Positions 10,101 to 48,252 of a DNA stretch of 64,000 bases are shown piece by piece. The stretch covers positions 372,001-436,000 of the forward strand of contig NZ_JAXHLN010000003.1 of assembly GCF_034522235.1 (NCBI RefSeq). Reading direction: 5' to 3'. The notes under the pieces were generated by a model. That model saw only the letters and a program-made list of their open reading frames with translations, ran no database searches and was not told the origin of the DNA. Position 1 is the first letter of the stretch. Each line of letters begins with the position of its first letter. The DNA is from Thiohalophilus sp. (lineage in GTDB: Bacteria; Pseudomonadota; Gammaproteobacteria; UBA6429; Thiohalophilaceae). The position numbers and the translations under genes were made by a program.

Positions 10101-11234
10101 GCCGATGACTTTCTGGCCTCAAACTATGATCGCAATCGGCCGTTACTGGACAATCTGACGGCGCATTTGCAAAAAATCAGTGGCACCACCATCGATCGTA
10201 ACGTCTGGCAACTGGATAACCTGCCCGAGTTTTATCACATGAACTTTCGCGTGGTGAACCCGGACAACCAGGTGCTGGGCGTCGGCCGGGACCTGGCGCA
10301 GTTGCAGCAGGAGCTCGCGACCCTGAGTGAAGGGGTGCTGGCCGAGCTGCCCACCTCGGATATTGAGAAGGTGAATATTACCCAATGGGACTTCGGCGAT
10401 CTGCCCGAGGTGGTGGAGCTGGAGCAACACGGGCTGACGATCCGCGCTTACCCGGCACTGGTGGATGACAGTGAGGATGGCGAGAGTGTGTCGGTGCGTC
10501 TGTTCAGTGATGAAGAACAGGCAAGTGATGCACAAAGACCCGGCCTGCGCGCGCTGTTCCGGCTGGTGGCCCGCAAGGAGATGAAGTATCTGCGCAAGAA
10601 TCTGCGCCACATCGACAAAAGCCAGTTGTTTTATACCTCGATCGGCGACAAGCAAAGCCTGTTGCAGGATCTCATCGATGCCATTATCGATGAGGCCCTG
10701 CTGGACGATATCGAGGATATTCGTTCACAGGAGATATTTAATCACCGGGTTGATGAGGCCAAAGGCGAGTTGATGCGCGTCTCGAATGACCTCTGTGATC
10801 GGCTGTACGAGATTTTGTCGCAATACCATAATGCCGCCAGGCGGCTGCAGGGTAATATTCCGCTGGCCTGGTTTGATGCCATCCAGGATATCCGCCAGCA
10901 ACTGGAGTGCCTGGTCTACGAAGGCTTTATCAGCCACACGCCCCGCCACTGGCTAAAACAGCTGCCGCGTTATCTCAAGGCCATTAATCTGCGACTGGAC
11001 AAGCTGGAACGCGGCGCGCTGGCGGCGGACAAACAACGCCAGGGAGAGGTGCAAAAGCACTGGAACCGGGTTTATGATCAGATCGGCGAGGCGCCGCAAC
11101 AAAAGCTCGGCCCCGAGTGGGAGATCTACCGCTGGATGGTGGAGGAAATGCGCGTGTCGTTGTTTGCGCAGGAGCTCGGGACCTCCCTGCCGGTTTCCAT
11201 CAAAAAACTCGATCAACAGGCCGCGCGGCTTTAA
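7194..11234 (+). CDS. hrpA: ATP-dependent RNA helicase HrpA (DEAH box)
   Basis: 1346 residues, normal for HrpA. Motif I is GETGSGKTTQLPK near residue 101, motif II DEAH near 198, motif III SAT near 230, and the second RecA domain has the conserved ATNVAETSLTVPGI and QRKGRCGR motifs. The helicase-associated, OB-fold and long C-terminal DUF3418-like regions follow. A Lys/Asp-rich linker near residues 560-600 is variable in the family. HrpA is a 3'-5' RNA helicase that rescues stalled or collided ribosomes and influences mRNA processing. It is probably transcribed alone. Confidence 0.95.
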   Translation: MNAPPESNTESLSEQIANGMLRDQFRFRRRLKKLRQSKRKTDDADPQWQKLAADIRASVSRRAQRQAALPVPDFPENLPVSERRDELREAIEQHQVVIVAGETGSGKTTQLPKICMELGRGVAGMIGHTQPRRLAARSIAGRVADELQSELGATVGYKVRFKDRVGPGTYLKLMTDGILLAEIQGDRFLNDYDTLIIDEAHERSLNIDFLLGYLKQLLPKRPDLKVIITSATIDTERFSRHFDHAPVIEVSGRTYPVEVRYRPLMDESQSSQNKSGETSSGDDSDGSPKDMQQALLEAVDELAAIDTAQGKSPGHILIFFSGEREIRQAAEALRKHHPPQTEILPLYARLSGAEQNRVFSPARHRRIVLATNVAETSLTVPGIHYVIDTGTVRISRYSYRSKIQRLPIEPVSRSSANQRKGRCGRIAEGVCIRLYSEADFNARPEFTDPEIRRTNLAAVILQMEALRLGHIEDFPFIEPPDARYIKDGYKLLYELGAVDEHQTVTKLGKELARLPADPKIGRMLIAARQFNCLQELLIIGTALSVQDPRERPADRQQQADEKHRLINSPPEDADPDNPSNTHKHKQKKDSSKKIEQRSDFLFYLRLWQLYEAKRKHLSQNKLRRFCKQHFLSYNRMQEWRDIYQQIYTLFKEQGVRLNTTAAGYDDIHRALLSGLLGNIGNKSVENNEFFGARNIRFHIHPGSWQAKKPPKWIMCAELVETTRLYGRMVARIEPQWIEELAAHLLKRSYSEPHWQKKPAQVAAFERTTLYGITITPKRRINYGPIDPVLAREIFIREALVQGDYDTRASFFKYNQSVIEEIESLEARSRRRDILVDEQALFEFYDERIPEGIYSGKAFEKWLKTVQQTNPEILYLQKESLMRHEAEHVNETQFPGAMEVDGVTLELDYHFEPGHAEDGVTAIVPLAVLGQLRQAAFDYLVPGLLRDKVIALIKCLPKALRKQFVPVPGYADDFLASNYDRNRPLLDNLTAHLQKISGTTIDRNVWQLDNLPEFYHMNFRVVNPDNQVLGVGRDLAQLQQELATLSEGVLAELPTSDIEKVNITQWDFGDLPEVVELEQHGLTIRAYPALVDDSEDGESVSVRLFSDEEQASDAQRPGLRALFRLVARKEMKYLRKNLRHIDKSQLFYTSIGDKQSLLQDLIDAIIDEALLDDIEDIRSQEIFNHRVDEAKGELMRVSNDLCDRLYEILSQYHNAARRLQGNIPLAWFDAIQDIRQQLECLVYEGFISHTPRHWLKQLPRYLKAINLRLDKLERGALAADKQRQGEVQKHWNRVYDQIGEAPQQKLGPEWEIYRWMVEEMRVSLFAQELGTSLPVSIKKLDQQAARL

Positions 11235-11313
11235 TATCATGCAGACGGGAATGGAGCGATACGGGGACAGTATAGCGATCTCCTGAATGCCCGGGTTATT
11301 GAAAGGTTAAAAT

Positions 11314-41397: not shown

Positions 41398-42070
41398 TGT
41401 CGCGGTCGAAGTCTCTCTCGGCAGTCGCTTCGACCATCCCTGGTCTCTCGCGACACTTGTACTTCCTGTACATCGTCCTGCCTTCCGTGGCAGAGCCCAC
41501 CCCGTGAGCAAAGCGAGTGCTTTGGGTGTTAGCACTTCCCTGTGCGTCGCCCGCTCCTACACATAAAACCGGTTACCGGCACAGCCCCGTAGGAGCGCCC
41601 CGCGGGCGCGAATCTCGAACCAAAGGCCGGTCGCGGTCGAAGCCCGCTCCTACACACATAAAACCGGTTACCGGCACAGCCCGTAGGAGCGCCCCGCGGG
41701 CACGAATCTCGAACCAAAGGCCGGTCGCGGTCGAAGCCCGCTCCTACACACATAAAACCGGTTACCGGCACAGCCCCGTAGGAGCGCCCCGCGGGCGCGA
41801 ATCTCGAACCAAAGGCCGGTCGCGGTCGAAGCCCGCTCCTACACATAAAACCGGTTACCGGCACAGCCCCGTAGGAGCGCCCCGCGGGCGCGAATCTCGA
41901 ACCAAAGGCCGATCGCGGTCGAAGTCTCTCTCGGCAGTCGCTTCGACCATCCCTGGTCTCTCGCGACACTTGTACTTCCTGTACATCGTCCTGCCTTCCG
42001 TGGCAGAGCCCACCCCGTGAGCAAAGCGAGTGCCTTTGGGTGTTAGCACTTCCCTGTGCGTCGCCCGCTC
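41398..42070. repeat. Four ~94-bp tandem repeats between two long direct repeats
   Basis: Units begin ACATAAAACCGGTTACCGGC at 41561, 41655, 41750 and 41843 (periods 94, 95, 93) and contain GTAGGAGCGCCCCGCGGGCG and AACCAAAGGCCGGTCGCGGT. The array is bounded by two copies of a ~155-bp segment (41398-41553 and 41912-42068) with TCTCTCGGCAGTCGCTTCGA and AGCACTTCCCTGTGCGTCGC. Long open frames across it on both strands (167 and 203 codons) merely repeat the DNA period and are not genes. Confidence 0.92.
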
Positions 42071-45920: not shown

Positions 45921-45993
45921 ATTTGTACTCCGGAATGTCCGGGGCAAGTTGTTTTCCTCGTAACTCGCCCCTCGTACCTCGTCACTGTATTTA

Positions 45994-46336
45994 TGGTGGG
46001 CCCGCCAGGACTCGAACCTGGGACCAAGGGATTCACAATCTCACGATATTTCTATCGCGTGCGGACTATCTCATCACCCTCGACAGCTATTGAATAGCTC
46101 GTTAGGGTGCGGGACGCTCGAAGCCTGTTATTAAGAGCACTCGGTTCCGAGGAACCCGCTCCCAGGTAGTCTCTGCACCTTCCGGCGGTGTACCGCCGGC
46201 TTGGCTCAGGGTTGCCATCAGTCCCACCGGCGTGGCTGTAAGGTTCCCCTGAATTCATCCCGTTCATTTCATGCCTTTCGGCATGAACGCACCTTTTTGA
46301 TGAGTCCCCTGCTCTAACCAACTGAGCTACAGGCCC
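45994..46336 (-). tRNA. tRNA-Ile2 (CAU anticodon) interrupted by a group I intron
   Basis: The 5' exon (46300-46336, 37 nt) runs GGGCCTGTAGCTCAGTTGGT through to CTCAT. The 3' exon (45994-46033, 40 nt) runs AATCCCTTGGTCCCAGGTTC to GGGCCCACCA with encoded CCA. Joined, they give a 77-nt cloverleaf: seven-pair acceptor with one G-U, a CTCATAA anticodon loop, and a GGTTCGAGTCC T arm. The TTGGTCCC variable region fits tRNA-Ile2 (AUA codons, needs lysidine at C34) better than elongator Met. Confidence 0.92.
46034..46299 (-). ncRNA. Group I intron (Azoarcus type) in the anticodon loop of tRNA-Ile2
   Basis: 266 nt inserted between anticodon U36 and A37. Diagnostic group I core elements are in order: the internal guide GGTGCG near the 5' end (GUG pairs with exon CAU, giving the U-G splice pair), GATGGCAACCCTGAGCCAAG (P4-P6 side), GAAGGTGCAGAGACTACCTG (P3/P7 side), GATGAGATAGTCCGCAC (P7-P3 end), and a terminal G. 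These match the small intron in Azoarcus tRNA-Ile(CAU), closely related in core sequence. It contains no homing-endonuclease gene. Confidence 0.9.
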
Positions 46337-46413: not shown

Positions 46414-48252
46414 TTATTCGTAGTCGAGGAAGCTGCGCAGGTGATCCGAGCGGGTCGGGTGACGCAGTTTGCGCAGTGCCTTGGCTTCGATCTGGCGAAT
46501 GCGCTCACGAGTGACATCGAACTGTTTGCCGACCTCTTCCAGGGTATGGTCGGTGTTCATGTCGATCCCGAAGCGCATGCGCAGTACTTTGGCCTCGCGC
46601 GCGGTCAGTCCTTCCAGTACACCCTGCACGGTTTCCATCAGGCCACTGGAGGTGGCGTGGTCCATCGGTGACAACACGTTGAGGTCCTCGATGAAGTCGC
46701 CCAGGTGGGAATCCTCGTCGTCGCCGATCGGGGTTTCCATGGAGATCGGTTCCTTGGCGATCTTCAGCACCTTGCGCACCTTGTCTTCGGGCATTTCCAT
46801 GCGTTCGGCCAGCTCTTCGGGCGTCGGTTCGCGGCCCATCTCCTGCAGCATCTGCCGCGAGATGCGGTTGAGCTTGTTGATGGTTTCGATCATATGCACC
46901 GGAATACGAATGGTGCGGGCCTGGTCCGCGATGGAGCGGGTGATGGCCTGACGAATCCACCAGGTGGCGTAGGTCGAGAACTTGTAACCGCGACGGTATT
47001 CGAATTTGTCGACCGCTTTCATCAGGCCGATGTTGCCTTCCTGGATCAGATCCAGGAACTGCAGCCCGCGGTTGGTGTACTTCTTGGCGATGGAGATCAC
47101 CAGGCGCAGGTTGGCCTCAACCATCTCTTTCTTGGCACGGCGGGCCTTGGCTTCGCCAATGGACATCTTGCGGTTGATATCCTTGACTTCGGAAATGGTC
47201 AGGCCGCAGATCTCCTCGATGGAGGCGAGCTTTTGCTGGGCACGCAGGATATCGTCCTTGTGCGCCAGCAGGACCGGCGAGTATTTGGTGTCGGCTTCAA
47301 TCTGTTGTTCCAGCCACTCGGGCTTGGCTTCATTCTCGGGGAACGAGGTGATGAATTCCTTGCGCGGCATGTGTGCGCGATCCACGCAGATGTCCATGAT
47401 GACTTTTTCATGGCTGCGAATACGATCGATCAGTTCGCGCATGGCCAGAACCAGGCTGTCCACGACCTTCTGGGTCAGTTTGAGCTGCATGACCTGTTCG
47501 ACCAGCTCGTCGCGATGCCTGGCGGTTTTCTTGTCGCGATGGCCGTATTTGCGGGTCGAGGTCACCAGCTTCTTATGGATCTTGCGAATGTTCTCGAAAC
47601 GCTGACGCGCCTCTTCGGGATCCGGGCCGGTATCGACTTCCTCGGCATCATCATCGTCGCTCTCGGTCGCGGCGGCGTTGGCGTCGACCGGGGTATGGGT
47701 CGGAATTTCATCCGGCGCATTGGGATCGATAAAGTCGGTAATCAGATCGGTCAGTTTCATTTCGCCGGCGTCGACCCGGTCCCACAGCAGCAGCAACTGG
47801 CTGGCGGTTTCGGGGTACATGGTCAGCGCGGAGAGCATCTGGTTGAGGCCGTCTTCGATGCGCTTGGCGATCTCGATTTCGCCGGCGCGGGTCAGCAGTT
47901 CCACCGCACCCATCTCGCGCATGTACATGCGCACGGGATCGGTGGTGCGACCGAACTCGCTGTCGACCGATGCCAGCGCGGCGGCGGCCTCTTCGGCGGC
48001 GTCTTCGTCCACCTCGGTGGTGGTCTCCAGAATGGTATCCGCGTCGGGGGCTGCCTCGTAGACGACGATACCCATATCGTTGATCATGGCAACGATATCT
48101 TCGATCTGCTCGGGGTCGACAATATCATCGGGCAGGTGGTCGTTGACCTCGGCATAGGTCAGAAAACCCTGTTCTTTACCCTTGGCAATCAACGACTTGA
48201 GCTGAGATTGCTGTTGAGTTAAATCCATCGCTTCGGCTTTTGCAGGCTTCAT
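46414..48252 (-). CDS. rpoD: RNA polymerase sigma factor RpoD (sigma-70)
   Basis: 612 residues. Region 1.1, 1.2 ([20 protein letters not shown]), the non-conserved insert, and regions 2-4 are complete: [40 protein letters not shown], and [20 protein letters not shown] with the promoter -35 recognition helix. It is the primary housekeeping sigma factor. ATG at 48228 (MDLTQQQSQ) is an alternative start. It is last in the classical macromolecular synthesis operon. Confidence 0.97.

Follow-up and report, generated by a model that had tools for sequence, protein, structure and literature searches.

The tRNA-Ile2(CAU) gene located at positions 46336-45994 (minus strand) of the window, by which is meant the whole 64,000-nt stretch of Thiohalophilus sp. 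DNA analysed here, is split by a group I intron of 266 nt. We read this insertion, with a probability of roughly 0.8, as a self-splicing intron, of a lineage shared with phages, that resides in the sole tRNA-Ile2 gene of the genome, on which AUA decoding would depend and which would have spread horizontally in connection with phages. An essential decoding step would then depend on a ribozyme presumably derived from a phage. Earlier examples of group I introns in tRNA-Ile2 come from Azoarcus, Acidovorax and Burkholderia, and what is new is a variant with a phage connection. As a model ribozyme the Azoarcus intron is a standard, and it is commonly regarded as a bacterial tRNA intron. The nucleotide position that it occupies is used not only by its own lineage but also by a second ribozyme lineage that is shared with phages.

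The interrupted tRNA-Ile2 gene at the rpoD locus

The only Rfam match within the 64-kb window was a full-length alignment of the group I intron model RF00028 to the intron (83.3 bits with a gathering threshold of 50, E 1e-19). A sequence-only reading of this DNA had proposed a 266-nt group I intron with a terminal G in tRNA-Ile2(CAU) and had named the Rfam covariance model as a check; both this match and the intronless orthologues bear the proposal out. At intronless orthologous loci 3' of rpoD in other Gammaproteobacteria the junction reads GACTCAT/AATCCC. Because these orthologues share the exon junction, both splice sites are fixed: the intron has G as its last nucleotide and separates U36 from A37, the insertion site that had been claimed. 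A chance match was rejected as an account of the intron. The rpoD stop codon precedes the tRNA gene by 77 nt on the minus strand, and the rpoD-tRNA-Ile2 neighbourhood is kept in many Gammaproteobacteria, with the insertion occupied at five of 80 named rpoD loci. When the exons were joined in silico, ARAGORN returned a 77-nt tRNA with a cloverleaf and a CAT anticodon. The coordinates of the gene and of the ribozyme elements are collected in Table 1.

Table 1. Features of the interrupted tRNA-Ile2(CAU) gene and its surroundings, in window coordinates
Feature	Position	Strand	Remarks
rpoD (RpoD, sigma-70)	46414..48252	-	immediately upstream of tRNA-Ile2; conserved rpoD-tRNA-Ile2 neighbourhood
5' exon, tRNA-Ile2(CAU)	46300..46336	-	37 nt, positions 1-36, ends ACUCAU (anticodon C34 A35 U36); from intronless orthologues
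Group I intron	46034..46299	-	266 nt, terminal G at 46034; from RF00028 match and intronless orthologues
Internal guide GGUG	46290..46293	-	GUG opposite exon CAU, U.G pair at splice site; pairing read from the sequence
P2 hairpin, GAAA loop	46268..46287	-	two-sided changes at 8/8 pairs, 99.4% paired
P3 5' strand CGGGATG	46256..46262	-	partner 46116-46110
P6a hairpin	46182..46199	-	6/7 pairs covary, 99.6% paired
P7 5' strand GACTA (G-binding helix)	46167..46171	-	partner 46068-46064; invariant in 39 introns; P7 by RF00028 alignment
J7/3 extension, P7.1-like stem	46117..46166	-	50 nt; CCTG/CAGG and covarying five-pair stem
P3 3' strand CGTCCCG	46110..46116	-	partner 46256..46262
P8	46075..46109	-	39-intron alignment
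P9 hairpin, GAAA loop	46044..46057	-	5/5 pairs covary, 92.8% paired
3' exon, tRNA-Ile2(CAU)	45994..46033	-	40 nt, starts at A37, CCA encoded

It had been predicted that standard tRNA scanners would miss the gene. This is so for ARAGORN in its default mode, which did not find it, and for tRNAscan-SE, which is described as not designed to detect such introns (PMC8450103), but not for ARAGORN with introns enabled, which gives exactly 45994-46336 with a 266-nt intron, the anticodon being misread as Gln(ctg). The Rfam tRNA model misses the interrupted gene as well, recovering a fragment only at 20.5 bits. The ORF list of the window holds no endonuclease-sized reading frame within the 266-nt intron, in keeping with the earlier statement that it has no endonuclease; an 89-aa mechanical ORF that runs across the intron was not counted as evidence of a gene. 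A prophage-borne tRNA was rejected for the window, where the gene stands next to the core genes rpoD and dnaG. A scan for sigma-70 promoters 5' of the tRNA gene found none, and a TATACT at about 46356-46351 in that region was not counted as evidence. Two repeats were also noted in the window. The short repeat CTCGTACCTCGTCACT occurs at 11 sites with up to two mismatches (chance 0.02), including an exact copy at 45971-45986, just past the tRNA gene, and a 93-bp GC-rich repeat is found in four tandem copies at 41549-41924 with 96% matches.

Structure and lineage of the ribozyme

The secondary structure was examined in an alignment of 39 gammaproteobacterial tRNA-Ile2 introns. Of 2105 pair cells in the 54-pair structure, 99.0% are standard; two-sided changes occur at 24 pairs, compared with 16.5 in shuffles, and pairing falls to 34-45% when the partners are slid. 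P3, P4, P6, P7, P8 and P9 are paired in the 39 homologues, which together with a score above gathering for RF00028 gives a group I core, and the 5' splice-site U36 facing the GUG guide and the terminal G are likewise those of a group I intron. The guide opposite CAU, which had been claimed from the single sequence, is supported by the sequence GGTGC (columns G7, G8, T9, G10 and C11), invariant in the 39 introns, as is the GTG at the 3' end of the intron. About 3-4 pairs make up the short P1 with the tRNA exon. The motifs GGCAACCCTGAGCCAAG and AGGTGCAGAGACTA, earlier picked out as parts of the core, are real; left unmentioned was the 50-nt domain that follows AGGTGCAGAGACTA at 46166-46117.

This J7/3 domain consists, in order, of CCTG, the covarying five-pair stem, a variable hairpin and CTTAATAACAGG, and its inner helix shows 27 compensatory cells and 0 broken pairs across the 39 introns. 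The extension is found in all tRNA-Ile2, tRNA-Thr and tRNA-Lys introns, those of tRNA-Thr(UGU) and tRNA-Lys(CUU) lying at the same 36/37 position, with its presence at two loci (L040 and L048) read from the sequence outside the script scoring. Introns in tRNA-Leu(UAA) and tRNA-Arg(CCU) have a short J7/3, which is 4 nt in most of the Leu introns measured.

A P7.1/P7.2 extension between P7 and P3 defines the IA2 introns (PMC4498298, PMC4227781), and it is by this extension that the T4 td ribozyme (IA2) differs from the IC3 ribozymes of Azoarcus and Synechococcus (PMC4498298). Because it sets T4 td apart from IC3, the window intron is IA2-like in this respect; its P7-P3 domain covaries, as one composite stem and not clearly as two separate hairpins. 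With 50 nt at this point, it lacks the short J7/3, free of P7.1/P7.2, of an Azoarcus-type IC3 intron. In core-alignment trees of 132-167 columns, in which many nodes are weak, the chromosomal and phage P7.1 introns form one clade apart from IC3 (83.7/90, and 84.1/80 in a second tree; 98.8/100 with L176), and the window intron falls with phage major capsid and terminase introns, away from Azoarcus. For the Azoarcus intron a presumed sequence was used in the identity comparisons and in the core tree, where it stands in a separate clade from the window intron and clusters with viral introns of Azoarcus type (96.9/93). Given the J7/3 extension and the tree, the window intron appears to be IA2-like and not IC3 like that of Azoarcus.

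The IC3 intron of the Azoarcus sp. BH72 pre-tRNA-Ile nonetheless shares with the window intron the tRNA, the position (after CAU and before A37), the GUG guide, the GAAA loops in P2 and P9, and the lack of an endonuclease. An earlier identification with the Azoarcus intron thus stands as to site and guide and fails as to the ribozyme itself, since Azoarcus-type introns have about 190-210 nt and a 4-nt J7/3 (seen in the viral relatives), whereas the window intron has 266 nt, a 50-nt P7.1-like domain and a place in the other clade. Group I introns that interrupt tRNA-Ile2, as here, were found by manual search in Acidovorax and Burkholderia (PMC8450103). The cyanobacterial and plastid tRNA-Leu(UAA) IC3 introns resemble the window intron in lying in the anticodon loop, but differ in their site (U34/A35), short J7/3 and separate clade. 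The same genome has a copy of this kind, a second group I intron of about 297 nt, of IC3 type with a short J7/3, in the only tRNA-Leu(UAA) found (L002 1480-1868, G000:C3 about 1698400-1698788). It sits at U34/A35 as in cyanobacteria, and its P6 loop has taken in copies of a 7-nt repeat element. Two tRNAs of the organism are therefore interrupted.

Relatives in phages and viral contigs

When the Azoarcus core was searched against 370 genomes of the class, IC3 introns were obtained in tRNAs for Leu, Ser, Thr and others, and none in tRNA-Ile2 at 36/37; Azoarcus-type tRNA-Ile2 introns were later found in viral contigs. The J7/3 motif TTAATAACAGGYNAGAGCGYCC, from the 3' part of the domain, gave at least 120 matches in viral contigs. 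Many of the viral introns of this J7/3 type lie in the SU10-type major capsid gene (PF17236), directly after CAU and with the guide GGUG, as in the window, while others lie in terminase genes of Vibrio phages. Two broad patterns were also tried against the viral contigs and rejected, as the matches listed were mostly due to chance, and a plasmid search with the window intron gave no match. Phage IA2 introns (T4 td, and those in the capsid and terminase genes of marine and Vibrio phages) have the P7.1-type extension between P7 and P3 in common with the window intron (PMC4498298), and in the capsid and terminase introns the J7/3 (CCTG..CTTAATAACAGG) and the P3-P8 core are near-identical to it. 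The window intron differs from them in being housed in a tRNA and not a protein gene, in having no homing endonuclease, and in its short P1 with the exon.

Introns of the P7.1 type are also present in the tRNA-Ile2(CAU) genes of phages. Four isolated Klebsiella jumbo phages (Muenster, KP13-7, phiKp_21 and RCIP0023) carry one at the identical position (104 bits with RF00028 for Muenster, L596); the interrupted gene is unannotated and lies between tRNA-Ser and tRNA-Asn, at 302828-303173 in Muenster. In three viral contigs tRNA-Ile2(CAU) is interrupted at this site by an intron of the P7.1 type; of these, L243 is T4-like, with RNA ligases and ribonucleotide reductase, and a terminase is reported for the other two (L712 and L726). 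A further phage tRNA-Ile2 intron, in L727, has 450 nt and an extra, possibly coding segment, the translation of which resembles by eye the end of an HNH-type endonuclease. Six viral contigs (L733, L734, L736, L737, L702 and L739) contain Azoarcus-type introns with a 4-nt J7/3 in tRNA-Ile2, which are 79-89% identical to the presumed Azoarcus core; a terminase is encoded in L733 and a UvsX-like recombinase in L702. Both lineages therefore use the same nucleotide position. That both kinds of intron occur at the CAU anticodon of phage tRNA genes, outside the coordinates of the sequence-only reading, is in our opinion the most interesting part of the analysis.

A 2014 review knew of phage introns only in protein genes (PMC3984707), and in the later literature, of which our coverage was incomplete, no report of phage introns outside protein genes was found. 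According to a 2025 database paper, IA2 introns occur mainly in viruses and bacteria, and phage-host exchange is suggested for them (PMC11835236). Should splicing be confirmed, the phages with interrupted tRNA-Ile2 genes would allow a direct test of whether introns pass between the tRNA genes of phage and host, and they would help to explain the seeming absence of tRNA-Ile2 in some genomes and phages.

Other interrupted RNA genes were seen in the course of the searches. Four viral contigs (L294 and L319; L236 and L328) have introns in another CAU tRNA (GGCTCAT/..G/AACC) and in tRNA-Leu(UAA), the tRNA-Leu(UAA) introns of this set lying near the 31/32 position with A, not U, as the last exon base. 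IC3-type introns were found in two CAU tRNAs at U33/C34, not 36/37 (L175 and L198). Near the interrupted tRNA-Ile2 of L243, positions 10966-11236 match a permuted tmRNA (RF04321, 62 bits), and at seven loci in several Gammaproteobacteria group I introns lie near the 3' end of tmRNA-like genes.

Dependence on splicing, distribution and origin

The tRNA inventory was taken from an RF00005 search of the genome, with ARAGORN run on the loci. The assembly is listed as 100% complete in three contigs. Among its 37 tRNA matches above the cut-off no second tRNA-Ile2 gene was found, the other CAT tRNAs being one elongator and one initiator Met, so the earlier claim of a sole copy of an essential tRNA is upheld. 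The exons match the rpoD-linked CAT tRNA of relatives, separate from both Met tRNAs, and TilS is encoded in the genome, which identifies the gene as tRNA-Ile2(CAU). Since no other tRNA-Ile2 was found and TilS is present, splicing should be obligatory for AUA decoding, as judged from gene content. AUA codons are rare, with one counted in five neighbouring genes.

In the course of events that we propose, the precursor would be transcribed and the intron would fold, its guide GUG pairing with the anticodon CAU, so that the splice site would be the U36.G wobble. Guanosine would attack after U36, and U36 would then attack after the terminal G, joining U36 to A37. TilS would convert C34 to lysidine only once the tRNA had been spliced, and for this reason AUA decoding would depend on the ribozyme. 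The intron, which lacks a mobility gene of its own, would spread by horizontal transfer within the Gammaproteobacteria, and phages, in which interrupted tRNA-Ile2 genes and related capsid and terminase introns are found, would be the most likely vehicle. It would be lost where an intact tRNA gene replaced the interrupted one.

The P7.1 intron was found in tRNA-Ile2 in 23 of 370 genomes of the class, from 16 families; given the strict filters, this is a lower bound. Of 40 genomes searched in the window's own family, 12 contain a complete copy, and in no fewer than 12 the site at this rpoD locus is empty. Intron identity between genera averages nearly the same within families as between them (0.793 and 0.783, permutation p 0.19), and the best matches of the window intron are in other families (0.80-0.84), most of its own family reaching 0.71-0.79. 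Within a genus the introns mostly resemble one another (0.87-0.94), so that over short times vertical descent does take place. In the nearest congener (G001, RpoD 98% identical) the old tRNA gene is reduced at that place to its first 13 nt, and a new, intronless tRNA-Ile2 stands just downstream; G042 and G046 retain, beside an intact CAT tRNA, the 3' halves of intron and tRNA. Loss thus takes place through replacement of the gene, as would be expected were the function indispensable. The vertical inheritance offered in the sequence-only reading does not agree with identities that do not track the host family or with an intronless nearest congener; the RNA-level transfer offered beside it is possible. 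Horizontal spread, probably linked to phages, fits the comparisons better; reverse splicing at CAU, homing and exchange of the whole gene are candidate routes. In a sample of the phylum, the J7/3 pattern was found only in the window genome and in one chance coding match, an absence that is weak evidence because the sample is rich in complete isolate genomes.

It is very improbable that the intron is decayed or unspliced and the tRNA a pseudogene. Relatives do hold remnants, namely the 3' half-introns of G042 and G046 and the 13-nt 5' remnant of G001, yet each of these has an intact CAT tRNA at the same locus and the window genome has none. Moreover, the core helices and catalytic motifs are all intact and conserved, the exons make a complete tRNA, TilS is retained, and one of the neighbouring genes contains an AUA codon. 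An Azoarcus-type IC3 intron, vertically inherited in the lineage and with a hairpin secondarily inserted in J7/3, would share the insertion site, the GUG guide, the GAAA loops L2 and L9 and the lack of an endonuclease, and the complete copies in 12 of the 40 genomes searched in the same family could be read that way. We consider this unlikely, however, as true Azoarcus-like introns with a 4-nt J7/3 exist at the same site in the six viral contigs and cluster with the presumed Azoarcus sequence while the P7.1 introns form another clade, and as the J7/3 domain sequence is common to phage capsid and terminase introns and no host-family signal is present.

What moved may also have been the whole interrupted tRNA gene, for example by recombination of a prophage or island at the tRNA, and not the intron alone. 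The exons are very similar across families, G001 is a case of whole-gene replacement, and in three proviral contigs an integrase-like reading frame lies beside the 3' end of an intron-bearing tRNA-Ile2; but the T-arm exons of the window differ from those of most carriers although the introns are similar, and the rpoD neighbourhood is conserved, so that we regard transfer of the whole gene as somewhat doubtful. Within the preferred reading of a phage-lineage intron that spreads horizontally, we suggest tentatively that the CAU landing site was reached independently by the Azoarcus-type and the P7.1 phage-type introns, because both guides read CAU, and that phages shuttle introns between capsid CAU sites and the CAU anticodons of phages and hosts. 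If this is true, hosts have come to need a phage ribozyme for AUA decoding.

Two further observations concern loci of this kind. In the proviral contigs mentioned above (L233, L234 and L235), which are joined to the 3' end of the intron-bearing tRNA-Ile2, the reading frame that looks integrase-like by eye lies downstream, and the interrupted gene seems to serve as an attachment site. Two loci (L143 and L144) have, after rpoD, a remnant consisting of a half-intron and the 3' half of the tRNA beside an intact CAT tRNA.
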